64,000 bases of DNA from Actinomycetospora termitidis (GTDB taxonomy: Bacteria; Actinomycetota; Actinomycetes; Mycobacteriales; Pseudonocardiaceae), in contig NZ_JASVWF010000003.1 in assembly GCF_030286555.1 (NCBI RefSeq), forward strand, positions 310,001-374,000, written 5' to 3'. Positions 1,088 to 48,238 of this stretch are shown piece after piece (position 1 is the first letter of the stretch; the number at the start of each line of letters is the position of its first letter). Below the pieces are notes generated by a model, which saw only the letters and a list, made by a program, of their open reading frames with translations, did not search any database and had not been told where the DNA came from. A program made the translations under genes and the position numbers.

Positions 1088-2409
1088 GCCTGGGCTCCCG
1101 GGGTGAGGACGAGCAGGGCGCGGGAGTCCGGGCGCAGGGCGGCCGCGGCCTCGGCGACGGCCTCGGGGGTGACGGCGGCGATCTCGGCGGGCAGCTCGTC
1201 GGAGAGCTCCGCCCGACCGTGGACGAGCTCGGCCGAGCCGAGGGCCAGCATCCGGTTCATCAGCCGGTCGTGCTCCCGGTAGAGGGCGCTGGCCCACCGG
1301 GCGGTGACCCGGCGCAGCTCCTCGGGCTCCGGTCCCTTCTCCGCGAGCAGCGCGAGCTCGGCGTCGACGGCGTCGACGACCTGCCGCGGGTCGACGGAGT
1401 CCGGGTGCACGGCGGTGACGGTGAAGGTGTCGGGGTCCCGCGCGTCGAGCGGCGCGCCCATGAGCCCGGCCGCGGCGGAGACGTCGGTGACCAGACCGTC
1501 GCCGTAGACGAGGCGCTGGGTCAGCCGGGCGGCCTCGCCGTCGGTGAGCAGGCTCCCGAGGACGGCGTGGGCGAGGTAGCCGCGCAGGTCCGCCGCGGGG
1601 TCGGGCAGGCGGTAGCCGAGCGCCAGCGCGGGCAGGGGCGCGTGGGGGTCGACGACGGACTCGTACCGCTCGCCGTCGGGAACCGGCTCGCCGAAGGACG
1701 GCCGGGCGGGCACCGGGCGCGCCGGGATGTCCCCGAAGTGGCGCTCGACCAGCGCCGCGGCGTCGTCGGGGTCGAAGTCGCCGACGACGGTCAGGACGGC
1801 GTTGCCCGGGGCGTAGTAGGCGTCGAAGAAGGCCGCGGCGTCGTCCAGGGTGGACGTCTCGAGGTCGCGGAAGTCCCCGTACCCGTTGTGGGCGTTGGGG
1901 TAGGTCGAGTACAGCACCGGCGGCAGCAGGATCCAGGGGAAGCCGCCGTAGGGCCGGTTGAGCACGTTGAGGCGGATCTCCTCCTTCACCACGTCGATCT
2001 GGTTCGCGAGGTTCTCCGCGGTGAGCTTCGGCGCACGCAACCGGTCGGCCTCGAGGAAGAGGCCGCGCTCCAGGGCGCCGGCGGGGAGGATCTGGAAGTA
2101 GTCGGTGTAGTCCTGGTGGGTGGAGCCGTTGAACACCCCACCCGAGCCCTGGACGTGCCGGAAGTGCGCGAGCTTCTCCAGGCTCTCCGAGCCCTGGAAC
2201 ATCAGGTGCTCGAAGAGGTGCGCGAAGCCGGTGCGCCCCTCCGGTTCGCTGCGGAACCCGACGTCGACGTGGACGGCGACCCCGACGACGGGGTTGGTCC
2301 GGTCGGGCGCGAGGAGCACCCGCAGGCCGTTGCCGAGGGTCAGACGCTGTCGCTCCGCGCCCGGCGACCGCGGGGCGGCCGGGGCTGTCGAGGTGGGGGC
2401 CGTACTCAC
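1084..2409 (-). CDS. M16 family zinc metallopeptidase, catalytic subunit
   Basis: 441 aa, the usual length for a single-unit M16 peptidase. The inverted zinc motif HLFEH is near residue 65 (context GFAHLFEHLMFQG), followed by a downstream glutamate region, so this is the catalytic member of the pair with the next gene. No signal peptide is visible, so it is probably cytoplasmic and acts on peptides or small proteins. The start is the ATG at 2409, with an N-terminus rich in Ser, Thr and Pro. It lies 9 bp downstream of a small membrane protein gene on the same strand. Confidence 0.9.
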   Translation of the reverse strand: MSTAPTSTAPAAPRSPGAERQRLTLGNGLRVLLAPDRTNPVVGVAVHVDVGFRSEPEGRTGFAHLFEHLMFQGSESLEKLAHFRHVQGSGGVFNGSTHQDYTDYFQILPAGALERGLFLEADRLRAPKLTAENLANQIDVVKEEIRLNVLNRPYGGFPWILLPPVLYSTYPNAHNGYGDFRDLETSTLDDAAAFFDAYYAPGNAVLTVVGDFDPDDAAALVERHFGDIPARPVPARPSFGEPVPDGERYESVVDPHAPLPALALGYRLPDPAADLRGYLAHAVLGSLLTDGEAARLTQRLVYGDGLVTDVSAAAGLMGAPLDARDPDTFTVTAVHPDSVDPRQVVDAVDAELALLAEKGPEPEELRRVTARWASALYREHDRLMNRMLALGSAELVHGRAELSDELPAEIAAVTPEAVAEAAAALRPDSRALLVLTPGAQA

Positions 2410-2418
2410 CCCACGACC

Positions 2419-3084
2419 CTAACGGCGACGGTGGGTGCGCTGGGCGGGGACGGCGTTCCGGGCGGATCGACCGGCGGCGCGACGGGTCGGTCGGGTCGCA
2501 CGGCGGGCGGGTGCAGGCCGACGGGCGGGCGTCGTCCGGCGAGCCAGGGTCACCACGAGCGATCCGGCGCCGAGCGCCGCGGCGACGGCGAGGGCGAGTT
2601 CGAGGCGCGCGACCAGGGGGGAGACGGTGTCGCCGCCGACGTCGGTCGTCGTGGGGGCGCCGTGGCCCCCCGTGCCCGCGACGGCGAGCGGGGCGACGAT
2701 CGCGCCGTCGGCGGGGACCTCGACGGCGACCGGGAAGCCGGGGCTGCGTCCGCACCCGTCGAGGACCGCCGCGCGCAGCACCCCGCCGACGTCGACGGTG
2801 ACCCGGTCGTGCGGGTCGGGCGACAGGCAGGACGCGGTGGCGACGACGACGGCGGTGGCCGTCACCGGCGGCGCGACCGGAGCGGCCGCGGGCGCCGGGG
2901 CGAGGCCGATGACCTGCGCGAGGGCGGGCACGCGCGGCACGACGAGCGCGACGACGGCCATCGCCCCGAGCGCCAGCGCGACGAGCAGCACGAGGGTGCG
3001 GGTGGAACGCTGATCACTCTCGGCGACCCGGGGACGCGCGAGCGTGGAGGCGCGTGACGGGAGCCCGTCGACCGAGAGTGACAC
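2419..3084 (-). CDS. Two-pass membrane protein of unknown function
   Basis: 221 aa from a GTG at 3084; no Met is available in this part of the frame. A first membrane segment lies at about residues 27-50 and a second at about 165-190. Between them is an external domain with two cysteines about 24 residues apart, which could form a disulfide. The tail is very basic (Arg-rich, with Thr, Ala and Pro) and would lie in the cytoplasm. I do not recognise a family. It ends 9 bp before the M16 peptidase gene, so it may be co-transcribed with the peptidase pair. The start is uncertain because the only purine-rich stretch upstream (GGAG) is about 13 bp away. Confidence 0.6.
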   Translation of the reverse strand: MSLSVDGLPSRASTLARPRVAESDQRSTRTLVLLVALALGAMAVVALVVPRVPALAQVIGLAPAPAAAPVAPPVTATAVVVATASCLSPDPHDRVTVDVGGVLRAAVLDGCGRSPGFPVAVEVPADGAIVAPLAVAGTGGHGAPTTTDVGGDTVSPLVARLELALAVAAALGAGSLVVTLARRTTPARRPAPARRATRPTRRAAGRSARNAVPAQRTHRRR

Positions 3085-3255
3085 GGGTGGGATTCTGCTC
3101 CCGAGGCGCCGGACCCGATGGAGGGATCCCCGGCTGTACCCACCGCGACCGGCTGGTACACCTACCCGCCGCGATTCCGTCCCGACCGGCGCATCGACCA
3201 CCGGTCGGCGGTGGCCCCCCGCTGACGGTGGGTGCCGGCTACGGGGACCCTTCCG

Positions 3256-3312
3256 GAACGAACGAACGGCACTCTCGCTGCATCTACGCGCGCGAGAGTG
3301 CCGTTCGATCAG
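3256..3312. repeat. Palindromic repeat, family B copy 1 (terminator position)
   Basis: A perfect 16-bp inverted repeat (CGAACGGCACTCTCGC at 3263-3278 and its complement at 3292-3307) with a 13-nt loop. It abuts the stop codon of the M20 peptidase gene (3309-3311). A close copy, including the 5' flank TCCGGAACGARCGAACGG, lies after dctA at 63776-63836. There is no T-tract, but the hairpin could end transcription or stabilise the 3' end. Confidence 0.85.
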
Positions 3313-4733
3313 GGTCGACGGCCACGAGCGGCCAGCAGCCGCCACAGGTGTGCCACGGACTCCGCCCCGCGCAGCAGCAGGGGCAGCACGGCGCGCTCGT
3401 CCGGGGCGTGGATGCGGTCGCCCGGCAGCATCACGCCGAGGAAGGCCAGCGGGGCGCCGAGGGCCTCGGTCAGCAGCGCCTCCGGCCCGCTGCCGCCCTC
3501 GCGGGCCGGGAGGACCTCGGCGCCGAGCGCGATGCCCATCGCCTCGCGGATCGAGGCGACCAGGTCGGAGTCGAGGTCGCAGATCAGCGGGGGCACGCCG
3601 GGCCCGCCGGTGGAGACCTCCGCGTCGATCCCGGCCGGGACGCGGTCGGCGACGTAGCGCTCGAGGAGGGCCTTGATGCGTGCCGGGTCCTGGTGGTCGA
3701 CCAGCCGGAACGTCATCTTCAGCGTCGCCGAGTGCGGCACGATCGTCTTGTGGCCCGGCCCGGCGTAGCCGCCGTGCAGGCCGTTGACCTCGGCGGTCGG
3801 GCGGGCCCAGAGGCGCTCGTAGGTCGACCAGCCGGCCTCGCCGGAGGTCGCCATCGCCCCGGCCGCGGATCCCGCGAGCCACGCGGGCTCGTCGAACGGC
3901 AGCGCCGCCCAGGCCGCGCGTTCCTCGGCGGTCGGCTCGCGGACGTCGTCGTAGAACCCCGGGACGGCGATGTGGCCGTCCTCGTCGTGGAAGGTCGCGA
4001 CCAGCCGGGCGAGCTCGGTGACCGGGTTCGGCACCGCCCCGCCGAACTGGCCGGAGTGCAGGTCGACCGAGGCGCCGCGGTAGACCACCTCGAGGTCGAC
4101 CAGGCCGCGCATCCCGCAGCACACGGTGGGCGTCTCCCGGTCGACCATGCCGGTGTCGGTCACGACGATCTCGTCGCACGCCAGCGCGTCGCCGTGCGCG
4201 GCGAGGACCTCGGCGAGGTGCGCGGAGCCGGACTCCTCCTCCCCCTCGACCAGCAGCTTCAGCGACACCGCGGGCGCGCTCGCCCCGGTCGCCGCGAGGT
4301 GCGCCCGGACGCCCAGCAGCACCATCGCGATGTGGCCCTTGTCGTCGGAGGCGCCGCGCCCGCGCAGCTCCTCCCCCACCACCTGCGGGTCGAACGGGGC
4401 GAAGGACCACCCGTCGTCGAGGTCGGCCGGCTGCACGTCGTGGTGGCCGTAGACCAGCACGGTCGGCGCGGCGGGGTCGGCGGCGGGCCAGTGGGCGTAG
4501 ACCGCGGGCAGGGCCGCGGTGTCCGACCACACCTCCACCGTCGGCCACCCGTCCCGGCGCAGGGTGGCCGCGAGCCACTCCGCGGAGCGGGCCACGTCGC
4601 CGTGGTGGTCGGGGTCGGCGCTGATCGACGGGATGCGCAGCCACTCGGAGAGCTCGGCGACGAAGGCGTCGGCCCGGGCCGCCACCTCGGTCTGCTCGAC
4701 GGTTCCGGAGAGCGGCTCGATCGTGCTGGTCAC
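3309..4733 (-). CDS. M20 family dipeptidase / metallopeptidase
   Basis: 474 aa. The di-zinc site motifs are in order: YGHHDVQPA (His and Asp ligands), GRGASDDKG (bridging Asp), EGEEESGS (catalytic Glu and ligand Glu), TDTG and a late GDRIHAPDE (last His ligand). The lid/dimerisation domain lies between them. This is the M20 dipeptidase group (CNDP/ArgE/DapE fold), which hydrolyses dipeptides or N-acylated amino acids in the cytoplasm. Two GTG starts are possible, 4742 and 4733; 4733 is preferred because a G-rich Shine-Dalgarno-like stretch precedes it. It follows the DoxX gene with almost no gap. A strong palindrome sits on its stop codon. Confidence 0.9.
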   Translation of the reverse strand: MTSTIEPLSGTVEQTEVAARADAFVAELSEWLRIPSISADPDHHGDVARSAEWLAATLRRDGWPTVEVWSDTAALPAVYAHWPAADPAAPTVLVYGHHDVQPADLDDGWSFAPFDPQVVGEELRGRGASDDKGHIAMVLLGVRAHLAATGASAPAVSLKLLVEGEEESGSAHLAEVLAAHGDALACDEIVVTDTGMVDRETPTVCCGMRGLVDLEVVYRGASVDLHSGQFGGAVPNPVTELARLVATFHDEDGHIAVPGFYDDVREPTAEERAAWAALPFDEPAWLAGSAAGAMATSGEAGWSTYERLWARPTAEVNGLHGGYAGPGHKTIVPHSATLKMTFRLVDHQDPARIKALLERYVADRVPAGIDAEVSTGGPGVPPLICDLDSDLVASIREAMGIALGAEVLPAREGGSGPEALLTEALGAPLAFLGVMLPGDRIHAPDERAVLPLLLRGAESVAHLWRLLAARGRRP

Positions 4734-4743
4734 CCGCCCCACG

Positions 4744-5148
4744 CTAGTCCGCGACGAGGGCCCGGATCTCGTGCCGCCGCACCACCGCGACCACGAGGAG
4801 CAGCACGCCCAGGATCACCGGCGTGTACCAGAAGCCGACGGAGAGGAAGAACAGCTGCGCGATCGTGGCGCCGACCATCAGCGCCGCGAGGCACGCGGCG
4901 GCGAGCGCCGTGACCCGCGGGACCAGCAGGCCGATGCCGCCCGCGATCTCGAGGACGCCGACGACGTAGCGGAGCACCTGGCCGCCCGGGAGCTCCGCGA
5001 AGAGCTGGATCGCGTACGCGTCGCCCCAGAGCTTCGGCAGGCCGGAGCCGACGACGAACATCAGGGCCAGCAGGACCTGGAGGACCCACAGGCCGATCGT
5101 GACGGCGCGCGAGCGGGAGGCGGCAGGGGCGGCGGTGAGGGTGCTCAT
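4744..5148 (-). CDS. DoxX family membrane protein
   Basis: 134 aa with four predicted membrane helices, at about residues 16-36, 58-76, 82-104 and 108-126. It has the typical DoxX loop with a conserved LPKLWG-type segment after helix 1. Family members are small integral membrane proteins, some linked to oxidative-stress protection; the substrate is unknown here. ATG start at 5148. It is divergent from the gamma-glutamyltransferase gene across an 84-bp gap with an unusually AT-rich patch. Confidence 0.85.
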   Translation of the reverse strand: MSTLTAAPAASRSRAVTIGLWVLQVLLALMFVVGSGLPKLWGDAYAIQLFAELPGGQVLRYVVGVLEIAGGIGLLVPRVTALAAACLAALMVGATIAQLFFLSVGFWYTPVILGVLLLVVAVVRRHEIRALVAD

Positions 5149-25941: not shown

Positions 25942-27078
25942 TCAGCCTCCCGCCGCGGACAGGGCGCTGCACGCACCGCAGGCGGCGCACCCGGCGGCCT
26001 GGTCGGCGCCCCGCATCCCGGCGGCGCGCAGGAGCGCGGCCACCCGGGCGGTGACGTCGGCGAGCAGGGCGGGGTCGGGCGCCGGGTCGCCGTCGGCGAA
26101 GGCCAGCGTGCCCGGGATCGGGCGGTAGGGGACGACGAAGGGGTAGACCCCCGCGTCGATCAGCTCGGCGGCGCCCGCAACCAGCTCGTCGGGGTCCTCG
26201 CCGAGCCCGACGATGAGGTAGGTCGAGACCGCGTTGCGGCCGAACAGGCGCACGCTCTCGCGCCACGCGGTCCAGTACTGGGACAGCGGGACGGTGGCCT
26301 TGCCCGGCATCCACCGGCGGCGCACGGCGTCGTCGAGGGACTCGACGTGGATGCCGATCGCGTCCGCACCGGCGTCCTTGAGCGCCTGCAGGGCGGCGAG
26401 GTCGTCCGGCGCCGGGGGTTCGCACTGCACCTGGACCGGCAGGTCGGGCACGGCCGCGCGGACCGCCGCGGTGCAGCGGGCCAGGTGGCGCGCTCCGCGG
26501 TCGCGGCCGTTCGACGTGCCCGTCGTCATGACCATCTGCCTGACGCCGTCGAGCCGGACCGCGGCCTCGGCGACCTCGGCGAGCTGGGCGGGCGTCTTCA
26601 CCGCGGTGGTGGCCCCGCTGCGCAGCGACTGCTCGATGGCGCAGAAGCGACAGCGGTCGGCTGCGTCGTCGTCGGTGCCGTAGCGCACGCAGGTCTGCAC
26701 GACCGTCGTCGCGAGCACGTCGTTCCCGTGCAGCCGCGCGACCTGCTCGTAGCGCACGCCGTCGGCGGTCGTCAGGTCGTAGAAGGCGGGGCGGGCGACG
26801 GTGTCGACGTCGACGCCGAGGTCGGTGACGCCGCCGTCGGGACCGGTCCGCACGAGCCGGCCGTCGCGCAGGCGGAAGGGGCTCGCGGGGTTGATCGGGA
26901 GGGTGGTCTTGAGCCCGTCGACGAGCAGGTGCCCGTCGTCGGAGGGCCCCGCGCCGCCCGGGCGGCGCAGCGGGATGGTGGCGCCGAGATCGACCGCGAC
27001 ACCGCGGACGGCCACTTCGGAACGGACGTCGAGACCGGAACGGGATTCGGCGGGAGCGGACAACGCGGGACCTCTCAT
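25942..27078 (-). CDS. Radical SAM protein (MSMEG_0568 type), Nit1C locus
   Basis: 378 aa. The radical SAM cluster cysteines appear as C130-x12-C143-x2-C146 (CRFCAIEQS), an expanded first gap compared with the common CxxxCxxC. A second cysteine set closes the protein: C364-x2-C367-x2-C370 (GCAACGACS), probably an auxiliary iron-sulfur site. TTGTSNGRDRG and GIHVESLDD resemble the SAM-binding strands of the barrel. This is the central enzyme of Nit1C clusters; its product is not established to my knowledge. ATG start at 27078 without an obvious Shine-Dalgarno. The leader between it and the preceding gene holds a 46-bp palindrome. Confidence 0.9.
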   Translation of the reverse strand: MRGPALSAPAESRSGLDVRSEVAVRGVAVDLGATIPLRRPGGAGPSDDGHLLVDGLKTTLPINPASPFRLRDGRLVRTGPDGGVTDLGVDVDTVARPAFYDLTTADGVRYEQVARLHGNDVLATTVVQTCVRYGTDDDAADRCRFCAIEQSLRSGATTAVKTPAQLAEVAEAAVRLDGVRQMVMTTGTSNGRDRGARHLARCTAAVRAAVPDLPVQVQCEPPAPDDLAALQALKDAGADAIGIHVESLDDAVRRRWMPGKATVPLSQYWTAWRESVRLFGRNAVSTYLIVGLGEDPDELVAGAAELIDAGVYPFVVPYRPIPGTLAFADGDPAPDPALLADVTARVAALLRAAGMRGADQAAGCAACGACSALSAAGG

Positions 27079-27660: not shown

Positions 27661-27791
27661 GGCGCTCCTTGATCGCAGGCGGTGGAGGATGCTGGGGCGG
27701 GCGGGTCGATCCGGACCCGGCCTCGTGGTGACAGAGCCAAACAACGGTCCATGACGGAAGTGTTTCCACGTGACTACGGGCCCGTGACCGA

Positions 27792-36479: not shown

Positions 36480-37148
36480 TCAGCCCGCCAGCGCCACCGA
36501 CGCCCGGTACCGGTCCGCGACCAACGACGCGACCGCCGGGTGGTCCCCCAACGGCTCCGCGACGACCGCCGCCCCCGCGCCCGTGGCCCACCGGTGGAAC
36601 ACCCCCGGCGCAAGCAGCCACGTCAGCAGCGCCACCGGCCCGTCCTGCGCCGCCACGACGTCGGCCAACCGCGGGTCGCCACCCGCCACGTAGCCGACCG
36701 GGACCTCGACGCCGACCCGGTCCCGCGCCAGCGAGGCCGCCACCCGCAGGTCGGCCTGCGCCACCGCGTCCGTGGATCCCGCCGCGGCCAGCACGACCCG
36801 CTCGTCGGCCCACCCCGCGTCCCGCAGCCGAGAGAGCGCCGCATCGACGAGCACGGCGTCCGGACCGAGCGGCTCGGTCACCAGCACGTCGTCGCGCCCC
36901 AGCGCCGCCAGCTGGTCCGGCACGTCGCGCCGCACGTGGAACCCCGACGCGAGGAACGCCGGCACGACGACCACCGGCCCGTCCGGGACCTTCGGCAGCA
37001 GGTCCGCGAGCTGGGGGCGTGCCACGCCAGCCCAGGCCAGGCGCACGTCCACGTCCGGCAGCAGCGAGCGCACCCGTGTCAGCAACGCGCCCCACGTCGC
37101 CCGCCCGGCCGGGTCGTTCGTGCCGTGCGCGAGCACGACCAGGGTCAC
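36480..37148 (-). CDS. Sirohydrochlorin chelatase (CbiX/SirB type)
   Basis: 222 aa. The N-terminal LVVLAHGTNDPAGR has the catalytic His of class II chelatases, and VVVPAFLASGFHVRRDVP carries the second His. It inserts iron into sirohydrochlorin to make siroheme, the cofactor of the upstream NirB and of the GlnR-reductase fusion nearby. The start is the GTG at 37148, overlapping the hemD stop by 4 bp. It is the last gene of the narK-nirBD-hemD operon. Confidence 0.88.
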   Translation of the reverse strand: MTLVVLAHGTNDPAGRATWGALLTRVRSLLPDVDVRLAWAGVARPQLADLLPKVPDGPVVVVPAFLASGFHVRRDVPDQLAALGRDDVLVTEPLGPDAVLVDAALSRLRDAGWADERVVLAAAGSTDAVAQADLRVAASLARDRVGVEVPVGYVAGGDPRLADVVAAQDGPVALLTWLLAPGVFHRWATGAGAAVVAEPLGDHPAVASLVADRYRASVALAG

Positions 37149-37966
37149 GAAGACGCCGCCACGTGCTCCTCCAACCGCCGCACCATCGCGCCGAGCCGGA
37201 AGCGCTCCGGAGCGATCGACGGGACGTCGAGCCGGTCCAACGGGGCCGCCGTCACGGGGCCCACCGCACACGCGAGCACGTCGCCGCGGAACGCCGACAG
37301 GAGCTCGTCCCGACGACCGACCGCCTCCGCCCGGTGCACCAGCCCCTCGACCGCCGGCGCCGACGTGAACGTCACCGCGTCCACCTCGTGGCCCACGATC
37401 GCCGCGATCAACGAGTCCACGGCGGGCAGGTCCGACGGCGGCTCCCACCGGTAGACGTGCACCTCGACGACGTCCGCGCCCGCCTCGCGCAACGCCGTCA
37501 GGAACGAGGTCATGGGATCGCCGTGCAGCTGCACCGCGATCCGGCGCCCGGACACCCCCTGCGCGAGGAGGTGCTCCAGGACCTCCGGCGAGGACTCCGT
37601 CTCGTCCGCGGACCACGCCTCGCGCAGCCCCGACCCGCGGATCGCGCCCCGCGCCTTCGGGCCCCGCGCGAGGACCTCCGCCGTCCCGAGCACGGACCGC
37701 AGCCGCTCCCCCAGGCCCCACTCGTCGGCGACCTCGAGCCACCCGCGGAAACCCTGGCCGGTGGTGGCGACGACGACGTCGGGCGGTGCGTCGAGCAGGC
37801 CCCGGGTCACCGCGGCGAGGTCGGTGTCGTCGGCCAGCGGCACGATCCGCATCGTCGGGCCGTGCACCGTCGTGGCGCCGCGTCGGTGCAGGAGCTCGAT
37901 CTGGTCGTCGGCGCGGCGGTCCGCCGTCACGCCGACGCGCACGCCCGCCAGCGGCCCGTCAGCCAC
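37145..37966 (-). CDS. hemD: Uroporphyrinogen-III synthase family protein
   Basis: 273 aa, two Rossmann-like lobes (VRVGVTADRRADDQIELL; then DAVTFTSAPAVEGL and CAVGPVTAAPLDRL). The family closes hydroxymethylbilane to uroporphyrinogen III, the precursor of siroheme. In several actinobacteria, as I recall for Rv0260c, the protein in this operon carries an extra C-terminal winged-helix DNA-binding domain; here it ends after the HemD lobes. The GTG at 37966 overlaps the nirD end by 8 bp. Confidence 0.87.
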   Translation of the reverse strand: MADGPLAGVRVGVTADRRADDQIELLHRRGATTVHGPTMRIVPLADDTDLAAVTRGLLDAPPDVVVATTGQGFRGWLEVADEWGLGERLRSVLGTAEVLARGPKARGAIRGSGLREAWSADETESSPEVLEHLLAQGVSGRRIAVQLHGDPMTSFLTALREAGADVVEVHVYRWEPPSDLPAVDSLIAAIVGHEVDAVTFTSAPAVEGLVHRAEAVGRRDELLSAFRGDVLACAVGPVTAAPLDRLDVPSIAPERFRLGAMVRRLEEHVAASS

Positions 37967-38387
37967 GCCCGACCTCCACCGTCCCGTTCACCACCCGCAC
38001 AGGATAGGTCGCGACCACGACGTCCGAATCCTCCAGCGCCGTCCCGGACTCCAACGAGAAGTGCTGCTTGTACAGCGGCGACGCGACGACGGGGGTGCCG
38101 CCGAGGTCCCCGACGATGCCGCGCGAGAGCACCGAGGCGTTCGAGAACGGGTCCACGTTGTGGAGCGCGAACAGCCGGTCGTCGTGGGTGCGGAAGACCG
38201 CGACGGGCTCGCCGTCGACCAGCGCGCACACCCCACGCTCCGGCTGGAGCCGGTCGAGCGGACACACCTCCGTCCATCCCGTTCCCGACGCCGGGTCGGG
38301 CGGGTCCACCGGTTTCGGCTGCGGGTCCTTCGCAGGCTGGGCGACGACGTCGAGACTCATGCCGGGGCTCCCATCGGTATGACTCAT
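37959..38387 (-). CDS. nirD: Nitrite reductase (NADH) small subunit NirD
   Basis: 142 aa, Rieske-like NirD fold (WTEVCPLDRLQPERGVCALV, HNVDPFSNASVLSRG, PLYKQHFSLESG) in which the cluster ligands are absent, as usual for this subunit. It partners NirB. Its 5' end contains a 27-bp tandem duplication that includes the nirB stop and the nirD start, giving two in-frame starts, ATG 38387 (overlapping nirB) and ATG 38360. The longer form adds nine residues. Confidence 0.9.
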   Translation of the reverse strand: MSHTDGSPGMSLDVVAQPAKDPQPKPVDPPDPASGTGWTEVCPLDRLQPERGVCALVDGEPVAVFRTHDDRLFALHNVDPFSNASVLSRGIVGDLGGTPVVASPLYKQHFSLESGTALEDSDVVVATYPVRVVNGTVEVGRG

Positions 38388-38407
38388 GCCGGGGCTCCCA
38401 TCGGTAT
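38354..38407. repeat. 27-bp tandem duplication across the nirB-nirD junction
   Basis: Positions 38354-38380 and 38381-38407 are identical. Each copy holds CAT/TCA, that is, on the minus strand, an ATGA stop-start overlap. The length is a multiple of three, so both reading frames survive. The likely origin is replication slippage. Confidence 0.95.
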
Positions 38408-40957
38408 CCGGGCTCCGTCGGTGATCGGGACCCCGCCGAGGCCCAGCGCGGCCAGGTCCGTCGGCTGGCCGTCCTTCATCCCGGCGGGGACGCGGCGGCC
38501 GAGGTGGTCGACGAACTCGATCGTCGGGTCCGGCACGCCCGGGGCGTTGACGAACGAGGTGAACCGCTCGAGCTTGTCCGGGTCGTCCAGCACCGCGGCC
38601 CACTCGTCGGCGTAGCCCGCGACGTGCCGGGCCATCTGCTCGTCGAGCGAGGCGCAGATCCCGAGCGAGTCGGACATGATCACGTCGCGGAGGTGGTCGA
38701 TCCCGCCCTCGAGCGACTCGATCCACGGCGCGGTCCGCTGCAGCCGGTCGGCGGTCCGGACGTAGAACATGAGGAACCGGTCGATCGTGCGGACGAGCGT
38801 CGTGGTGTCCAGGTCCGAGGCGATCAGCTCGGCGTGCCGCGGGGTGAACCCGCCGTTGCCGCCGAGGTAGAGGTTCCAGCCGGTCTCGGTGGCGATGATC
38901 CCGAAGTCCTTGGACCGCGCCTCGGCGCACTCGCGGGCGCAGCCCGACACCCCGGACTTCAGCTTGTGCGGTGAGCGCAGCCCCCGGTAGCGCAGCTCCA
39001 GCGCGACCGCGAGCCCAACGGAGTCCTGCACGCCGTAGCGGCACCAGTCGGTGCCGACGCACGACTTCACCGTCCGCAGCGACTTCCCGTACGCGTGGCC
39101 GGACTCGAACCCGGCGTCCACCAGCCGCTTCCAGATGGCCGGCAGCTGCTCGACGCGCGCGCCGAACATGTCGATGCGCTGTCCGCCGGTGATCTTGGTG
39201 TAGAGGCCGAAGTCCTTCGCGACCGAGCCGATCGCGATCAGCCCCTCGCCCGTCACCTCCCCGCCGGGCAGGCGCGGCACCACGGAGTAGGTGCCGTTGC
39301 GCTGCAGGTTCGCGAGGAAGTGGTCGTTGGTGTCCTGCAGGGCCGCGGACTCGCCGTCGAGCACGTGCCCGCCCGCCAGCGTCGCGAGCATGGAGGCGAC
39401 CGCCGGCTTGCAGACGTCGCACCCGCGGCCGGTGCCGTACTGCTCGACGATCGCGGAGAACGTCGTCAGGCCGGTCACCATGACGATCTCGTAGAGCTCC
39501 GCGCGGGACTGCACGAAGTGCTCGCACAGCGCCTTCGAGACCTCGACCCCGCAGCTCGTCAGCACCTTCGCGAGCGTCGGCACGCACGAGCCGCAGGTCG
39601 TCCCGGCCCGGGTGCACGCCTTGAGCTGCGGCACCGTCGTGGCCTCGCCGGAGCTGATCGCCTCCACCAGCGCACCCTTGGTGACCGCGTTGCACGAGCA
39701 GATCTGGGCACCGTCGGGAAGGGCCTCGAAGCCGACGGCCTCGCCACTTGACGGCGCGATCAGCGACATCGGATCCCCCGGGAGCGTCGCGCCCAGGAAC
39801 CCGCGCAGCGTCTCGTAGTCCGAGGCGTCGCCGACCAGGACGCCGCCGAGCAGCGTCTGCGCGTCGTCGCTGACGACGAGCTTGGAGTAGGTCCCGGCGA
39901 CCGGGTCGTTCAGCGTCACCTCGAGGGCGCCGGGGGTCGTGGCGTGGGCGTCCCCGAACGAGGCGACGTCGACGCCGAGCAGCTTGAGCTTCGTCGACAG
40001 GTCGGCCTCGGTGAAGCGGCCCTCGCCGCCGGTCAGGCGCTCCGCCACGACCTCGGCCATCGCGTAGCCCGGGGCCACGAGGCCGTAGGTGCGGCCCTTC
40101 ACGGCGGCCACCTCGCCGATCGCCCAGACGTGCTCCGCGTACGTGCGGCAGCGCTCGTCGACCAGGACGCCGCCGCGCTCGCCGACCTCCAGTCCGACCT
40201 CGCGGGCCAGTGCGTCGGCGGGCCGGATGCCGGCGGAGAACACGACGACGGACGCGTCCAGCTCCGTGCCGTCGGAGAGCGTGACCGTGAGCCCGCCACG
40301 GTGGTCCCGGGCGATGGAGCTCGTGGAGACGCCGGTGTGCACCCGCAGGCCGAGCTCGGACACCAGCCGCGCCAGCAGCGCGCCGCCGCCCTCGTCGACC
40401 TGCACCGGCATCAGCCGCGGCGCCATCTCCACCACGTGCGGCGACAGGCCCAGCTGCCGCAGCGCGTTCGCGGCCTCCAGCCCGAGCAGCCCGCCCCCGA
40501 CGACGACGCCCGCGCGGCGCCCCGCCCCGGCATGGGCGGTCGCCTCCTCGGCGGCCGCACGCAGCCCGTCCAGGTCGTCGAGGGTGCGGTAGACGAACAC
40601 GCCGTCCTGGTCGCGGCCCGGGACGGGCGGCACGAAGGGCACGCTGCCGGTGGCGAGGACCAGCTCGTCGTAGGCGACGTCGCGACCCTTCCCGGTGCGC
40701 ACCGTGCGCCCGGCGAGGTCGATCCCGACGACGGGTTCGTCCAGGTGCAGCTCGACCAGCGGGTCGTGCCCGTCGAGCGTGAGGTCCTCCGCGGAGGCGT
40801 CCCCGACGTAGGACGACAGCGCGACCCGGTCGTAGGCGGGCCGGTTCTCCTGCGCCAGCACCACGACCCGCCAGGCGTCCCCGGTGTCCCGGCGCCGCAG
40901 GCCCTCGACGAAGCGGTGTCCCACCATCCCGTGGCCGACGACGACGACGGTCTTCAC
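38384..40957 (-). CDS. nirB: Assimilatory nitrite reductase (NADH) large subunit NirB
   Basis: 857 aa. An N-terminal FAD/NADH module (VVVVGHGMVGHRFVE; VVVGGGLLGLEAANAL) is followed by a BFD-like [2Fe-2S] domain (ICSCNAVTKGALVEA and TCGSC). The siroheme/[4Fe-4S] reductase domain has SCVGTDWCRYG and GVSGCARECAEARSKDFG. It reduces nitrite to ammonium with NADH in the cytoplasm. GTG start at 40957 with GAGGGAG upstream. It follows narK across a 73-bp gap that holds a 46-bp palindrome. Confidence 0.95.
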   Translation of the reverse strand: MKTVVVVGHGMVGHRFVEGLRRRDTGDAWRVVVLAQENRPAYDRVALSSYVGDASAEDLTLDGHDPLVELHLDEPVVGIDLAGRTVRTGKGRDVAYDELVLATGSVPFVPPVPGRDQDGVFVYRTLDDLDGLRAAAEEATAHAGAGRRAGVVVGGGLLGLEAANALRQLGLSPHVVEMAPRLMPVQVDEGGGALLARLVSELGLRVHTGVSTSSIARDHRGGLTVTLSDGTELDASVVVFSAGIRPADALAREVGLEVGERGGVLVDERCRTYAEHVWAIGEVAAVKGRTYGLVAPGYAMAEVVAERLTGGEGRFTEADLSTKLKLLGVDVASFGDAHATTPGALEVTLNDPVAGTYSKLVVSDDAQTLLGGVLVGDASDYETLRGFLGATLPGDPMSLIAPSSGEAVGFEALPDGAQICSCNAVTKGALVEAISSGEATTVPQLKACTRAGTTCGSCVPTLAKVLTSCGVEVSKALCEHFVQSRAELYEIVMVTGLTTFSAIVEQYGTGRGCDVCKPAVASMLATLAGGHVLDGESAALQDTNDHFLANLQRNGTYSVVPRLPGGEVTGEGLIAIGSVAKDFGLYTKITGGQRIDMFGARVEQLPAIWKRLVDAGFESGHAYGKSLRTVKSCVGTDWCRYGVQDSVGLAVALELRYRGLRSPHKLKSGVSGCARECAEARSKDFGIIATETGWNLYLGGNGGFTPRHAELIASDLDTTTLVRTIDRFLMFYVRTADRLQRTAPWIESLEGGIDHLRDVIMSDSLGICASLDEQMARHVAGYADEWAAVLDDPDKLERFTSFVNAPGVPDPTIEFVDHLGRRVPAGMKDGQPTDLAALGLGGVPITDGARIPMGAPA

Positions 40958-40981
40958 GATGTGTTGTGCTCCCTCCGGTCG

Positions 40982-41027
40982 CAGGTGAGCAGTTGTTGCG
41001 GCTATGACCACAACAACTACTCACCTG
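40982..41027. repeat. 46-bp palindrome, family E copy 2 (between narK and nirB)
   Basis: Left arm CAGGTGAGCAGTTGTTG (40982-40998), right arm CAACAACTACTCACCTG (41011-41027), paired at 16 of 17 positions. Outer stem, centre (CGGCTAT..CCA) and flanks (GGTCG before, TGCTCACA after) match copy 1 at 27093-27138, but the inner stem bases are different and mostly still paired. It begins 3 nt after the narK stop, exactly as copy 1 does after its upstream gene. Confidence 0.85.
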
Positions 41028-41030
41028 TGC

Positions 41031-42419
41031 TCACACGGACGCGTACGAGACCTTCGAGCCCGTCGTGGGGTCGGTCGCCGCCTTCGGCGTGCGCATGTAG
41101 ACGAGGTAGGTCACGACGAAGCAGACGGCGTAGAAGGCGAGGAACGCCCAGAACGCCGGCGAGCCGGACGTCGTCGTCAGGAACGACTGGCGGAACGCGA
41201 GGTTGATCAGCAGGCCGCCGAAGGCGCCGATGGCGCCCGCGATGCCGATCACGGCACCGGAGATCCGGCGCGCCCACAGCAGCGCGGCCTCCTGGTCCCA
41301 GCCGCGCGTCTCCGACGACGCCAGGGCCTTCGTCCGGAAGATCGCCGGGATCATCTTGTACACCGAGCCGTTGCCGATGCCCGAGGTGATGAACAGCAGC
41401 ACGAAGCCGATGACGAAGATCGGCAGCGAGTCGATCGCGGAGGCCCAGATGCAGATCAGGGCAGCCACGGCCATCGCGACGAAGTTCCAGAACGTCACGC
41501 GTACGCCGCCGATCCGGTCGGAGAGCGCGCCGCCCACCGGGCGGATCAGCGACCCGAGCAGCGGCCCGATGAACGTCAGCGTCGCGGCCTGCAGCGGGGT
41601 GCGGCCGAACTGGTTCTGCAGGACGAGTCCGAACGCGAAGCTGTAGCCGATGAACGAGCCGAAGGTGCCGATGTAGAGGAAGGAGATGATCCAGGTCTGC
41701 GCCTCGGAGCAGGCCTCCTTCAACGCCCCGGTGTCGTTGCGCACCGAGGTCAGGTTGTCCATGAAGAAGACCGAGCCGACCAGGGCCAGCACGATCAGCG
41801 GGATGTAGATGGCGAGCAGGATGCGCGGCGCCCCGGTCCCCGCCGTCGCGATGATCAGCAGGCCGACCAGCTGGATGACCGCGACCCCGAGGTTGCCGCC
41901 CCCGGCGTTCAGCCCGAGGGCCTTGCCCTTCTCCTTCTCGGGGAAGAACGCGTTGATGTTCGTCATCGACGAGGCGAAGTTGCCGCCACCGACGCCGGCG
42001 ATCGCGGCGATCACCATGAACGTGGTGTAGCTCGTCCCCGGCTGCATGAAGAAGGCCAGCAGCACCGTCGGGACCAGCAGCAGAGCGGCGCTGATGACCG
42101 TCCAGTTCCGCCCGCCGAACACCGCGACCGCCAGCGTGTAGGGCAGCCGCAGCACCGAGCCGACCAGCGTCGGCATCGACACGAGGAAGAACTTGCCCGC
42201 CGTGTCGATGTGGTAGGTCTGCTCGGGCATGAACAGCACGAGCACCGCGAACAGCGACCAGATCGAGAACCCGATGTGCTCGGAGAACACCGAGAACCAC
42301 AGGTTCCGGTTCGCGACCTTCTTGCCGCCGCCCCGCCAGAACGACTCGTCCTCGGGCCGCCAGTCGTCGATCCACCGGCCCCGCAGCAGTCCCTCGGACC
42401 GTGGTGTCGCCACCGTCAT
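41031..42419 (-). CDS. narK: NarK-type nitrate/nitrite transporter (MFS)
   Basis: 462 aa with 12 membrane helices. It belongs to the nitrate-nitrite porter family of MFS (FASSMTNINAFFPEKEKGKALGLNAGGGNLGVAV, read as two parts, is the nitrate signature; a second is near GGALSDRIGGVRVTF). It brings in nitrate or exports/imports nitrite for the NirBD enzyme downstream. No assimilatory nitrate reductase is in the window. ATG at 42419. The 141-bp leader region (42420-42560) probably holds the operon promoter. Confidence 0.9.
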   Translation of the reverse strand: MTVATPRSEGLLRGRWIDDWRPEDESFWRGGGKKVANRNLWFSVFSEHIGFSIWSLFAVLVLFMPEQTYHIDTAGKFFLVSMPTLVGSVLRLPYTLAVAVFGGRNWTVISAALLLVPTVLLAFFMQPGTSYTTFMVIAAIAGVGGGNFASSMTNINAFFPEKEKGKALGLNAGGGNLGVAVIQLVGLLIIATAGTGAPRILLAIYIPLIVLALVGSVFFMDNLTSVRNDTGALKEACSEAQTWIISFLYIGTFGSFIGYSFAFGLVLQNQFGRTPLQAATLTFIGPLLGSLIRPVGGALSDRIGGVRVTFWNFVAMAVAALICIWASAIDSLPIFVIGFVLLFITSGIGNGSVYKMIPAIFRTKALASSETRGWDQEAALLWARRISGAVIGIAGAIGAFGGLLINLAFRQSFLTTTSGSPAFWAFLAFYAVCFVVTYLVYMRTPKAATDPTTGSKVSYASV

Positions 42420-42560
42420 GCCGTCCGCCTCTCGTCCTCGCCGGGGGCGCGACGCGGTGGGCGCCCCGTTCGGCGGCCGACGCTAGGAAGCGGCCGTTAC
42501 ACTCCGATGACGGTGTGTTTCCGGGGAACGACGGAACGAGGGCGGGCCGTCACGGTTCCC

Positions 42561-44559: not shown

Positions 44560-44612
44560 CCAGCCCAACGTAGCGCGTGATCATCGTCGGCGGGCGCGCC
44601 TACCGTGGGGGC

Positions 44613-45785
44613 ATGGAGCGTTCCCGCCCGGTCGAGGTCGTGCCCACCGACGGCTCCGCCGCCGCGGCCCACGCGCTGGGCGAGCGGCTCGTGTCCGCGG
44701 TCGCCGGCCACGGCCCGGCGGTCCTGCCGACCGGCCCCGACGACCCGCCGCCCCCCGCGCACCTCACCGCCCCGGTCCCGGCCGGGGTGGCCGCCGTCGT
44801 GACGACGTCGGGGTCGACCGGCGTCCCGAAGGCGGTCCTGCTCTCGGGGACCGCGCTGGCGGCGTCGGCGGCGTCGACGACCGCGCGCCTCGGTGGCGAG
44901 GGCCGCTGGCTGCTCGCGCTGCCCGCCCACCACGTCGCCGGGGTCCAGGTGCTGCTGCGCTCCGCCCGGGCGGGGGTGCCGGCGGCGGTGATGGACCTGC
45001 GGGACGGGTTCCGCCCGGACGCGTTCGCCGCCGCCGTGGCCGAGGCGCGACCGACCGTCTCCCGGCTGTCCCTGGTGCCCACCCAGCTCCGCCGCCTCCT
45101 CGACGACGCCGGGGCGGGCCTGGCCGCGGTGCGGCGCTTCGACGCCGTGCTGATCGGCGGGGCCGCCGCGGAGGCCGCCCTGCTGGACCGCGCCCGGGAG
45201 GCCGGCGTGCGGGTGGTGACGACGTACGGCATGAGCGAGACCTGCGGCGGCTGCGTGTACGACGGTGTGCCCCTGGACCGGGTCACCGCCGAGATCGTCG
45301 ACCCCGACCCGTCCGGTGTCGGACGGATCGTGCTCGGCGGGGCGACGATCGCCGAGGGATACCAGGGGCTGGACGACCCCGCGTTCCTGCCCGGCCGCCG
45401 CTTCGCCACCTCCGACCTCGGCCGGCTCGCCCCCGACGGCCGCCTGGAGGTCCTCGGCCGTGCCGACGACGTCATCGTGACCGGCGGCGAGAAGGTGCCC
45501 CCGGCCGTCGTCGAGAAGGCCCTGCTCGAGATGCCGGGGGTGCGCGAGGCGTGCGTGGTCGGCGTGCCGGACGCCGAGTGGGGGTCGCGGGTCGTCGCCG
45601 TGGTGGCCGGGAGCGGGCTGGACCCCGAGGAGGTGCGACGGCAGGTCGCGCCGGCCCTCGGCCGTGCGGCGCCCCGCGCGGTGCGGGTGCTCGACGCCGT
45701 GCCCCTGCGCGGGATCGGCAAGCCGGACCGGACGGCGGTCCGTGACCTCTTCGACGAGGGGTCGGGGGCAACACGCCCGTCATGA
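44613..45785 (+). CDS. menE: o-Succinylbenzoate-CoA ligase MenE
   Basis: 390 aa, ANL-superfamily adenylate-forming enzyme, on the short side for the class. Motifs: TTSGSTGVPKAVLLS (P-loop), TYGMSETCGG, RFATSDLGRLAPDGRLEVLGRADD and VTGGEKVPP, with the C-terminal Lys in RGIGKPDRTA. It makes OSB-CoA for MenB (52450-53352). ATG at 44613. The GlnR-reductase fusion starts 20 bp after its stop and may be read from the same transcript. Confidence 0.92.
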   Translation: MERSRPVEVVPTDGSAAAAHALGERLVSAVAGHGPAVLPTGPDDPPPPAHLTAPVPAGVAAVVTTSGSTGVPKAVLLSGTALAASAASTTARLGGEGRWLLALPAHHVAGVQVLLRSARAGVPAAVMDLRDGFRPDAFAAAVAEARPTVSRLSLVPTQLRRLLDDAGAGLAAVRRFDAVLIGGAAAEAALLDRAREAGVRVVTTYGMSETCGGCVYDGVPLDRVTAEIVDPDPSGVGRIVLGGATIAEGYQGLDDPAFLPGRRFATSDLGRLAPDGRLEVLGRADDVIVTGGEKVPPAVVEKALLEMPGVREACVVGVPDAEWGSRVVAVVAGSGLDPEEVRRQVAPALGRAAPRAVRVLDAVPLRGIGKPDRTAVRDLFDEGSGATRPS

Positions 45786-45805
45786 GCGGGTGATGACATG
45801 GGGCG

Positions 45806-48238
45806 ATGCACCTGCTCGTCCTGACCGGGGAGTCGCGGCTCGACGTCGTGCTCCCGGGGCTCGCGGTGCTGCCCGACCACCGGGTCGCCCTCGGCGCCCT
45901 CACCGCCGCCGAGGCGGTCACCTCCGCGGTCGACGTCGACGCGGTCCTCCTCGACGCGCGCACGCGTCCGTTCGCGGCGGCCGAGCTGGCGGCGACCGTG
46001 GACACGGTGCGGCCCGGGCTGCCGGTCGTCGTCGTGGTCGGCCCGGACGCGGCGTTCCCGGTCGAGGACGACGTGCCCGTCGACACGCTGCTCCTCCCCG
46101 ACGCGTCACCCGCCGAGGTCGCGGCCCGGCTGCGGCTGGTCGCCCGCCCCGTCCCGCCCGCCCCGCGCCCGCGCCGGGACCGCCGCCCGGCCGCGCCGCC
46201 CCCGGGCGCGCTGGTGGTCGACGAGCTCGTCGTCGACACCGTCGCCTACCAGGCCTGGCTCGCGGGCCGCCCACTCGCACTCGCCCGTCGGGAGCTGGAG
46301 CTCCTCGCCGCCCTGGCCGCGCGCCCGGGCCGCCCGATGAGCCGGACCGCCCTGCTCCGGCACGTGTGGGGCCGGGACTACGACGGCAGCGCCCGCACCG
46401 TCGACGTGCACGTCCGCCAGCTGCGCCGCGTGCTCGGACCCGGTCACCGCGAGATGATCCGCACCCTGCGCGGGGTCGGCTACGCCCTCTTCCCGACGGC
46501 GGGCCCTGCCGCGGCCGCCGCCGACGCCCCCGGCCGCGTGGCCGCGCCGCTGCGCCCGGAGGAGGCCCTCGACGCGCCGTCCGCCCCGGCCCGTCCCGGC
46601 GGACGGGACGCGCCCGGCGACGTCGTCGCGAGCAAGCGCGCCGGGCTGCCGCTGGACCTGGACGCGATCGCCGAGCCGACCCGGCTGGGCGCCCTCGAGC
46701 GCTACAGCCTCAAGACGCTCGGGGCCTGCTCGGAGGGCGACGACGGGCTCTTCCTCCTGCGGGCCCGCACCCGGGGACGTATCCCGGTGGCGGCCGCCCG
46801 CGCGCTCGCCGCGCTGCTGCGCGAGCGCGACCTCGGGCCGGTGCACCTGACGACCCGCCAGCAGCTGGAGCTGCACGACGTGCCGGCCGGGCTCGTCGTC
46901 GGGACCCTCGACGCCCTGCACGCGGCCGGCCTGGACACCGCCGCGACCTGCGGCCACACGGTCCGCGGGGTGACCAGCTGTCCCGACGCCGGGGTCTCGG
47001 CCGAGGAGCCCTTCGACTGCACCCCCGACGCCGACCGGCTCACCGACTCGCTGCTGCGGCTCGGCCCGGAGCTCAACACCCGCCTGCCGCAGCGCTTCAC
47101 GATCAGCCTCGGCGGCTGCCCCGGGTGCCGAGGGCAGGCGAAGGTGTCCGACGTCGGGCTCGTGTCCGTGCTCGACGACGAGGGCCGGCCGGGCTACGAA
47201 CTGTGGGTCGGCGGCGGGCTCGGCCGGTCGCGGCCGACGCTGGCGACGCGCCTCGCGCCCTTCGTCCCGCGCGACCGGCTGCTGCCCGCCGTGCACGCGG
47301 TGCTGGCGGTCTTCCTCGCCCACGGGGCGTTCGAGAACCCCAACCGGGCGCGGTTGAAGTTCCTGGTCGCGCGCCTCGGCCTCCCTCGCTTCCGCGCGCT
47401 CGTCGTGGAGGCCGAGACCGATCTGCGGCACCGGCCGTGGCCGGCGCCGGCCCCGCTGCCCGAGGTCCGCGTGCCCGGGGTCCCCGAGGGCCCGGCTCCG
47501 CCCGACGGCTGGGGCGACGACGTCCGTCCGCAACGCACCCCGGGGCTCGCCACGGTCACGGTCACCGTGCCGCTGGGGAGCCTGTCCGCGGCGGCGCTGG
47601 AGGCCGTGGCCGAGGTCGCGGGAGAGATGGGCGACGGGAGCGTGCGGCTGACCCGCGAGCAGAACGTGGTGGTCCGGGACGTGCCGGTCGGCCGCGTCGA
47701 GGCCCTCGCCGCCCGCGTCGCCGCCGTCGGCCTCGCCGTGCACACCGACCGCCCCGCCCGGGACGTGCGCGCCTGCGTCGGCGCCCCCTCCTGCGCGCTC
47801 GCGATCACCCCGACCCGCGACCTCGCCCGCGGCCTGTGGCACCTGCCCGCCCTGCGCCGGAACTCCGGCGTCGCGGTGAGCGTGTCCGGCTGCCCCGCGT
47901 CCTGCGCGCGCCACCAGGCCGCGGACCTCGGGCTCGCCGGCAACCTCGTGTCGGTCCGCGGGCACCGCGTGCCCGGATACCGGGTGCACCTCGGCGGCGA
48001 CCTGGGGCGCGACCGCCTCGGCACCGTCCTGGGGCGCGTCGCGGCCGACCAGGTCACGCAGCTCGTGGACCAGGTGGTCCGGACGTGGGAGGGCGTACGG
48101 GTCGGGCACGAGAGCCTCGCCGACACCGTGGCTCGCACCGGCCTGGAGCCGTTCGTGTCCGCCCTGCGCGGGCTGCCCGGCCTGTCCTGGGAGGCGGGCG
48201 ACGACGAGCGCCCGTCGCTCCCGCTGGTCACCCGCTGA
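45806..48238 (+). CDS. GlnR-like response regulator fused to a siroheme nitrite/sulfite reductase
   Basis: 810 aa in one open frame. Residues 1-110: GlnR-like receiver with Asp50 (VLLDAR) but without the full acidic pocket, as in orphan GlnR. About 135-232: OmpR-type winged helix (RRELELLAAL, LLRHVWGRDYDGSARTVDVH, LRGVGYALF). About 233-290: Ala/Pro linker. About 290-810: NirA/sulfite-reductase core with two ferredoxin-like halves (LTTRQQLELHDV; LTREQNVVVRDV) and the siroheme/[4Fe-4S] ligands C657-x5-C663 and C696-x3-C700. A nitrogen regulator is thus tethered to an assimilatory redox enzyme. It might be a siroheme-based sensor, a DNA-bound reductase, or a reductase with a vestigial module. 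The narK-nirB operon is 3.4 kb away. ATG at 45806. Confidence 0.9.
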   Translation: MHLLVLTGESRLDVVLPGLAVLPDHRVALGALTAAEAVTSAVDVDAVLLDARTRPFAAAELAATVDTVRPGLPVVVVVGPDAAFPVEDDVPVDTLLLPDASPAEVAARLRLVARPVPPAPRPRRDRRPAAPPPGALVVDELVVDTVAYQAWLAGRPLALARRELELLAALAARPGRPMSRTALLRHVWGRDYDGSARTVDVHVRQLRRVLGPGHREMIRTLRGVGYALFPTAGPAAAAADAPGRVAAPLRPEEALDAPSAPARPGGRDAPGDVVASKRAGLPLDLDAIAEPTRLGALERYSLKTLGACSEGDDGLFLLRARTRGRIPVAAARALAALLRERDLGPVHLTTRQQLELHDVPAGLVVGTLDALHAAGLDTAATCGHTVRGVTSCPDAGVSAEEPFDCTPDADRLTDSLLRLGPELNTRLPQRFTISLGGCPGCRGQAKVSDVGLVSVLDDEGRPGYELWVGGGLGRSRPTLATRLAPFVPRDRLLPAVHAVLAVFLAHGAFENPNRARLKFLVARLGLPRFRALVVEAETDLRHRPWPAPAPLPEVRVPGVPEGPAPPDGWGDDVRPQRTPGLATVTVTVPLGSLSAAALEAVAEVAGEMGDGSVRLTREQNVVVRDVPVGRVEALAARVAAVGLAVHTDRPARDVRACVGAPSCALAITPTRDLARGLWHLPALRRNSGVAVSVSGCPASCARHQAADLGLAGNLVSVRGHRVPGYRVHLGGDLGRDRLGTVLGRVAADQVTQLVDQVVRTWEGVRVGHESLADTVARTGLEPFVSALRGLPGLSWEAGDDERPSLPLVTR

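Follow-up and report, generated by a model that had tools for sequence, protein, structure and literature searches.

A GlnR-type regulator joined to a siroheme nitrite/sulfite reductase in one clade of Actinomycetospora

Enzymes that share a polypeptide with a DNA-binding regulator have been described as trigger enzymes, with PutA and BirA as examples (PMC6978683). In nitrogen metabolism, the comparable protein is NnaR, which joins a HemD domain to a winged helix. The narK3, nirBD, nnaR and sirB genes of Mycobacterium abscessus are described as one operon, and the same source describes the HemD domain of Streptomyces NnaR as catalytically inactive and its role as unclear (PMC11162112). In Streptomyces, nnaR is reported to be activated by GlnR, whose unphosphorylated dimer is held by residues D50, R52 and T9 (PMC10704036). 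Here, we describe a gene in a 64,000-nucleotide stretch of the Actinomycetospora termitidis genome (contig NZ_JASVWF010000003.1, positions 310,001 to 374,000 of the forward strand; hereafter the window) that encodes a single protein joining a GlnR-type regulator to a full-length siroheme nitrite/sulfite reductase. Enzyme-winged-helix regulators (NnaR, BirA), GlnR and siroheme reductases are already known, and the pairing appears to be the new part.

The 810-codon frame is open throughout, from its ATG to its TGA. Its layout is given below in window coordinates, with reference to two sets of relatives: ten stand-alone reductases and 65 ordinary NirA-type paralogues.

45806..48238, + strand: fused gene, 810 amino acids, consisting of GlnR-type receiver, winged helix, linker and siroheme reductase
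45806..46141, + strand: GlnR-type receiver, residues 1-112 (Pfam GlnR_1st, 62.9 bits, cut-off 27)
46265..46489, + strand: OmpR/GlnR-type winged helix, residues 154-228 (Pfam Trans_reg_C, 85 bits)
46496..46591, + strand: variable linker, residues 231-262
46592..46657, + strand: near-invariant junction RPGGRDAPGDVVASKRAGLPLD, residues 263-284, whose second half matches the N-terminus of the stand-alone reductases
46601..48160, + strand: siroheme nitrite/sulfite reductase half, residues 266-785 (by Pfam, alignment and tree)
47093..47101, + strand: R430-F431-T432, which is K-(F/Y/W)-K in ordinary NirA and R-x-N in the stand-alone relatives
47774..47905, + strand: stretch with the cluster cysteines C657, C663, C696 and C700 (7/7 fusions, 10/10 stand-alone reductases, 65/65 NirA)

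All Pfam matches in the protein (GlnR_1st, Trans_reg_C, and two stretches each of NIR_SIR and NIR_SIR_ferr) exceed the gathering scores. The guanine-plus-cytosine (GC) content at third codon positions is 0.94-1.00 in each 54-codon block, the linker included, which is the pattern of a coding frame. Because long frames commonly arise by chance at such GC content, conservation is the real test of the fusion. We found an unbroken, stop-free, full-length fusion in 7 of the 18 Actinomycetospora genomes, the genome under study included; the other orthologues are 84-88% identical to its protein in four genomes and 65-66% identical in two, and the named records among the carriers are A. chiangmaiensis, A. 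soli, A. endophytica and A. sp. NBRC 106378. A reading made from the sequence alone had proposed this joining of receiver, winged helix and reductase, and had placed its weak point in the linker. The linker carries neither a stop nor a frameshift, and the single frame recurs without stops in 6 of the 17 other genomes of the genus (65-88% identity), so the proposed architecture stands. No HEM4 domain was found in the fused protein by the Pfam scan, and the protein is therefore not a member of NnaR. An identification as CobG was also rejected (NCBIfam match of 136 bits against a cut-off of 234.8, with NirA models scoring higher), as was a separate internal product, since the seven linkers have no in-frame start codon in common.

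The fusion follows the phylogeny of the genus. A midpoint-rooted tree of four neighboring proteins splits the genus into two clades, and the fusion is found in seven of the eight genomes of one and in none of the ten genomes of the other; the eighth genome of the first clade, G013, has a completeness of 59% and lacks a close match to menE. Among the 11 genomes of the genus in which no fusion was found, G004 and G007 are 83-84% complete. Matches with an expectation value of 1e-90 or better occur in 7 of 297 genomes of the same family, all of them Actinomycetospora. The fusion was not found outside the one clade in searches of the class (394 genomes, among the matches listed), the phylum (296 genomes), the family (297 genomes) and one further class (66 genomes). 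Fused relatives thus occur within the genus, although relatives elsewhere have the two parts as separate proteins.

Both halves of the fused protein are maintained, as judged from substitution rates and invariant residues. Ratios of nonsynonymous to synonymous substitution rates (dN/dS; Nei-Gojobori method, NG86), which are approximate at this GC content, range from 0.06 to 0.71 for receiver, winged helix and reductase across all 21 orthologue pairs, and from 0.14 to 0.45 for the reductase half. Residues invariant in the seven orthologues number 40 of 115 in the receiver, 48 of 93 in the winged helix, 7 of 35 in the linker (231-265), 26 of 35 at the junction (266-300) and 277 of 485 in the reductase, which makes the reductase the domain with the highest share and the receiver the one with the lowest. 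These values indicate that receiver, winged helix and reductase are all under purifying selection.

By alignment and phylogeny, the reductase half is assigned to a distinct family and not to ordinary actinobacterial NirA. In the class, nothing above 39% identity was found outside the fusion's own genome among the matches listed, best first. In other classes of the phylum, we found ten near-full-length stand-alone reductases with 43-49% identity (a partial match in G691 from this search, and the G725 match and partial G730 match from the search of one relative's class, were left out of the alignment). In a 50-row tree built from 7 fusions, 10 stand-alone reductases and 33 of the 65 NirA (long branches and an uneven composition were flagged), fusions and stand-alone reductases separate together from NirA (support 100/100), and the fusions form one group (99/98) with the stand-alone family as its sister. 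On these grounds, an ordinary NirA paralogue was rejected. Within the class of one stand-alone carrier, 6 of 66 genomes have a family member (one of them partial), and none is fused. The best NCBIfam score of the fusion, 179 bits, lies below the curated cut-offs of 594 and 523, and the three of ten stand-alone proteins that were scanned fall below every curated cut-off listed. At the N-terminus of the reductase, several stand-alone proteins have the motif NIPAAKRAGLPVDLDRL, of which the fusions keep DVVASKRAGLPLD. Of 192 columns conserved at 90% or more in the 65 ordinary NirA, 73 are kept in all fusions, and 80 of the 173 columns conserved at 95% or more have that residue in no fusion. Of the 185 columns conserved in the stand-alone family, 117 are kept in all seven fusions and 32 are changed in all of them. 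The simplest reading of this distribution would be a transfer of the reductase into the genus from elsewhere. The earlier description of a complete NirA-like reductase holds for its length and its cysteines, but not for its family or for the lysines of the LPRKxK motif, which are replaced.

The active site combines strict conservation with change. The ligands of the iron-sulfur cluster and siroheme, arranged as CX5C...CX3C (C657, C663, C696 and C700), are present as the sequence-only reading had listed them and are kept in every fusion. The arginines R319, R351 and R387 are likewise kept in 7/7 fusions, 10/10 stand-alone reductases and 65/65 NirA. The two lysines of LPRKxK are K and K in 65/65 NirA, R and N in 10/10 stand-alone reductases, and K and N in the solved plant nitrite reductases in our alignments; in the fusions, R430 occupies the first position in 7/7, and position 432 is T in five and S in two. 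From motif and spacing, we tentatively take R319, R387 and positions 430 and 432 to be the counterparts of the anion-binding residues of MjFsr. In that enzyme, two arginines and two lysines (R355, R423, K460 and K462) are reported to bind sulfite (PMC10229431). In place of the set Arg, Arg, Lys, Lys, all seven fusions keep the arginines and replace both lysines. Two further changes are Q726R, found in 7/7 fusions and in none of the 75 other proteins (Q726 is present in 10/10 stand-alone reductases), and N698A, which adjoins a cluster cysteine and occurs in 7/7 fusions and in one of the ten stand-alone reductases (G564). Invariant iron-sulfur cysteines together with replaced lysines are the pattern expected of a site that is competent to bind but altered, and the active site of the fusion is likely altered without being plainly dead. 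The full ligand set had been taken as an argument against a dead enzyme; given the replaced lysine pair of the anion site, the cysteines do not by themselves establish function.

The N-terminal half of the reductase contains four further cysteines, C392, C405, C438 and C441 (window positions 46979-47128). All four are kept in 10/10 stand-alone reductases; three are invariant in the fusions, C405 is present in 6/7, and 34 of the 65 ordinary NirA likewise have C at the positions of C392 and C438. They possibly form a second metal site.

The gene neighborhoods of the stand-alone reductases support nitrite as the probable substrate of the family. In 3 of the 10 loci (L139, L145 and L146), a gene for an NnaR-type HemD-winged-helix protein lies upstream and a NarK-family gene is close by; a siroheme-synthase gene separates nnaR from the reductase gene in L139, and the stop of nnaR overlaps the reductase start by 4 nucleotides in the other two. 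L142 has a NarK-family gene nearby and L137 a formate/nitrite-family transporter gene downstream, so that nitrate/nitrite-type transporter genes (four NarK-family, one formate/nitrite-family) are found near 5 of the 10 loci. Of the four NarK-family genes, those of L145 and L146 exceed the cut-off of the model TIGR00886, and those of L139 and L142 fall somewhat short of it. No such neighbor was found at the five other loci by tblastn with the window proteins, a search in which the narK query missed three NarK-family genes elsewhere and some contigs were short. Of the nitrite or sulfite chemistry proposed earlier, these neighbors point to nitrite rather than sulfite.

The regulator half retains the features of GlnR. 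The protein has the GlnR N-terminal domain and Trans_reg_C, D50 and R52 are kept in 7/7 orthologues, and residue 7, which aligns to T9 of GlnR, is T in four orthologues and S in three, as expected of the same pocket. The closest solved structures in our alignments are the GlnR-type chains 8HIH and 8HIG. The recognition-helix region, ARTVDVHVRQLRRVLGP in the fusion and TRTVDVHVRRLRAKLGP in GlnR, shows few differences. The canonical GlnR of the same genome scores 147.3 and 103.3 bits with GlnR_1st and Trans_reg_C, as opposed to 62.9 and 85 bits for the fusion; given this separate gene and its far higher domain scores, the GlnR half of the fusion is a paralogue. NirB, an ordinary NirA-type paralogue and canonical GlnR are each encoded by other genes of the genome, and the fusion is thus neither the sole enzyme nor the sole GlnR. 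The GlnR matches in G021 and G024 (46-47% identity) were rejected: their loci share the neighbors of canonical glnR and have no reductase match.

Predicted binding sites resembling GlnR half-sites lie upstream of both the fused gene and narK:

45768..45794, + strand: half-sites GCAAC-n6-GTCAT-n6-GTGAT with an 11-bp pitch, found by eye and by pattern matches; the array ends 11 nucleotides before the fused-gene start and overlaps the end of menE
42496..42521, - strand: half-sites GAAAC-n5-GTCAT-n6-GTAAC upstream of narK, found by eye and by pattern match

For comparison, the GlnR box is given as gTnAc-n6-GaAAc (PMC10704036). By eye, and with varying spacers, GnAAC-n6-GT(A/C)A(C/T) followed by n6 and a third half-site is found upstream of 7/7 fused genes (further upstream in G009 and G015), and a related array is found at the narK promoter in all 17 genomes compared. 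The pattern GNAACN6GTMAY, which was picked after the array had been seen, occurs 6 times in the window, as opposed to 0.53 expected and with 0 of 100 shuffles reaching that number. Its positions are 10480, 19230, 27751, 27803, 42094 and 45768; the minus-strand pair at 27751 and 27803 is closely spaced and lies upstream of 25942-27078.

The window also contains a nir cluster. Its genes run in the order sirB-hemD-nirD-nirB-narK on the minus strand, followed by a TIGR02569 gene and menC, after which the plus strand carries menE and the fused gene:

36480..37148, - strand: sirB/cbiX-type sirohydrochlorin chelatase (Pfam CbiX, 67.7 bits)
37145..37966, - strand: hemD in the position of nnaR, 273 amino acids, without winged helix (NF005568, 380 bits, cut-off 273)
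37959..38360, - strand: nirD, Rieske-type small subunit (Pfam Rieske_2, 134 bits)
38384..41011, - strand: nirB, nitrite reductase large subunit (TIGR02374, 1026.8 bits, cut-off 578.35)
41031..42419, - strand: narK, nitrate/nitrite transporter of the major facilitator superfamily (TIGR00886, 307.5 bits, just under the cut-off of 311.7)
44577..45785, + strand: menE, the upstream neighbor, which ends 20 nucleotides before the fused gene (NF005877, 355.8 bits, cut-off 345)

The order narK-nirB-nirD-hemD-sirB matches that of the M. abscessus operon, with hemD in the place of nnaR. NF005568 is a model of 381 positions, of which the window HemD covers 7-276; in three NnaR-type proteins, whose winged helix lies in the last part, the match extends as far as 372-373, with 204-243 bits (below the cut-off of 273). 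With an NnaR-type query, which covered 61 genomes (24 of other families were not counted), only the HemD part was matched in 18/18 Actinomycetospora genomes unless a stop is passed, and no full NnaR match was found in them. In other genera of the family, 15 of 19 genomes (all but G022, G028, G030 and G035) match NnaR through the winged helix. The genus therefore appears to lack the DNA-binding domain of NnaR, and the comparison with HemD-winged-helix fusions made in the sequence-only reading proves apt. Two observations concern nirB itself. A second NirB-like protein (G000:C1:709907-712342) is 37-40% identical to the window NirB and has a long match in 13/18 genomes of the genus, and the nirB match in L124 (G011; about 2256-4876, reversed orientation) falls into two adjoining pieces, which suggests a frameshift or split gene.

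We propose, with a probability of about one in two, that the product of the fused gene is a regulator specific to the nitrate/nitrite pathway, which took over the role of NnaR and uses its siroheme-[4Fe-4S] domain as a sensor. The GlnR-type receiver would hold the dimer, the winged helix would bind the half-sites that precede its own gene and those in the promoter of narK-nirBD-hemD-sirB, and the siroheme-[4Fe-4S] domain would sense nitrite, nitric oxide (NO), siroheme supply or redox state. The fusion would thereby fill the place of NnaR, whose HemD part stays in the nir operon without a DNA-binding domain. DNA binding, cofactor loading, sensing and the replacement of NnaR are the inferred parts of this reading. 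A more specific account is tentative, and we rate it below even odds: that the siroheme-[4Fe-4S] centre, by binding nitrite or NO or by reporting siroheme supply, directly governs how the GlnR-type winged helix binds DNA. By this account, NnaR had lost its DNA-binding domain in the genus, and the protein would have originated there from the joining of a duplicated GlnR to a nitrite reductase with relatives encoded just after nnaR in other genomes.

Several observations weigh against the proposed regulator. The narK arrays look alike with and without the fusion (17 promoters, by eye), and a fusion-specific operator at narK was accordingly rejected. The stricter pattern TnAC-n6-nnAAC is found in 6 of the 17 narK promoters, that of the window not among them, and GTMAYN6GTRAY occurs twice in the window, no more than chance would give (two were reached in 22 of 100 shuffles). 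All seven genomes with the fusion have nirB, as do 3 of the remaining 11 in the genus; since the fusion is confined to one clade and represents few independent events, this association carries little weight. Moreover, the three genomes G010, G011 and G012 have nirB without the fusion and without a matched NnaR winged helix, and the fusion is thus not required for nirBD. Enzyme activity may persist, since R430 is still positively charged and neither lysine is found in the stand-alone relatives. A predicted structure (mean predicted local distance difference test score, pLDDT, of 46, from a five-sequence alignment) was too poor and was not used.

The main rival makes the protein a bifunctional trigger enzyme, an active assimilatory nitrite reductase whose GlnR half represses or activates the nir genes, along with its own, depending on whether the enzyme is occupied, as in PutA and BirA. 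The conserved cluster cysteines and R319, R351 and R387, the transporter genes at half of the stand-alone loci and the 117 of 185 stand-alone columns kept in all fusions are in keeping with this; yet Q726 and the asparagine at 432, both present in 10/10 stand-alone reductases, are changed in 7/7 fusions, as are 32 of the 185 columns, and nirB is present in each of the seven fusion genomes. We regard the trigger enzyme as possible but doubtful.

If the protein were mainly an enzyme, its GlnR-like half would merely dimerize or tether the reductase, regulation having been lost. Although the receiver is the least conserved domain (40/115 invariant residues, against 277/485 in the reductase) and a canonical GlnR is encoded elsewhere in the genome, a winged helix with 48/93 invariant residues, a recognition helix near-identical to that of GlnR and the GlnR-like half-sites that precede the fused gene make this unlikely. 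Less likely again is the converse, a GlnR-type regulator whose reductase part is inert and free of cofactor: the 80 of 173 strongly conserved NirA columns without the usual residue in any fusion would fit it, but the reductase has the highest invariant share of the protein, dN/dS of 0.14-0.45 over 21 pairs and all four cluster cysteines. An assembly or sequencing artefact, in whose favor nothing was found, is refuted by the same open frame in seven separate genomes (the genome under study and six at 65-88% identity), four of them also represented by named public contigs.

Should the proposed regulator be confirmed, the fusion would be a siroheme-based transcription factor, of which, as of a GlnR-siroheme reductase pairing, none was found among the titles listed in searches of open-licence papers. 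Its interest lies in an nnaR-type operon having a putative regulator with an enzyme half drawn from nitrite chemistry itself, so that this half may tell a nitrogen switch when that chemistry is needed. It becomes directly testable whether the siroheme centre, or its supply, controls nitrogen promoters.

Among known systems, NnaR (NasE in Amycolatopsis) is like the fusion in pairing a tetrapyrrole-related enzyme domain with an OmpR-type winged helix and in its tie to nir genes; the fusion, like nnaR, is probably also a GlnR target. The fusion differs from NnaR in that its enzyme half is a siroheme reductase instead of HemD and is C-terminal, and in that a GlnR receiver is present; of NnaR, the genus keeps only the HemD part. 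With GlnR, the fusion shares the D50/R52 receiver, the winged helix, the recognition helix and the type of half-site, but it is only 38-47% identical to the GlnR matches of its own family, carries about 560 extra residues and is a paralogue beside canonical GlnR. NirA-type reductases (NF007125, NF007126; PDB 1ZJ8) have the same two-fold NIR_SIR plan, CX5C...CX3C cysteines and conserved arginines, whereas the fusion is 32-39% identical to them, has LPQRx(T/S) in place of LPRKxK and scores far below the curated cut-offs. The stand-alone family shares the N-terminal motif, the cysteines, R430 and 43-49% identity with the fusion, and differs in being unfused, in having N at 432 and in the separate NnaR-type gene upstream in 3/10 loci. 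Finally, PutA and BirA are built from unrelated enzymes with unrelated chemistry, and the likeness of the fusion to them, as judged by sequence alone, is one of layout.

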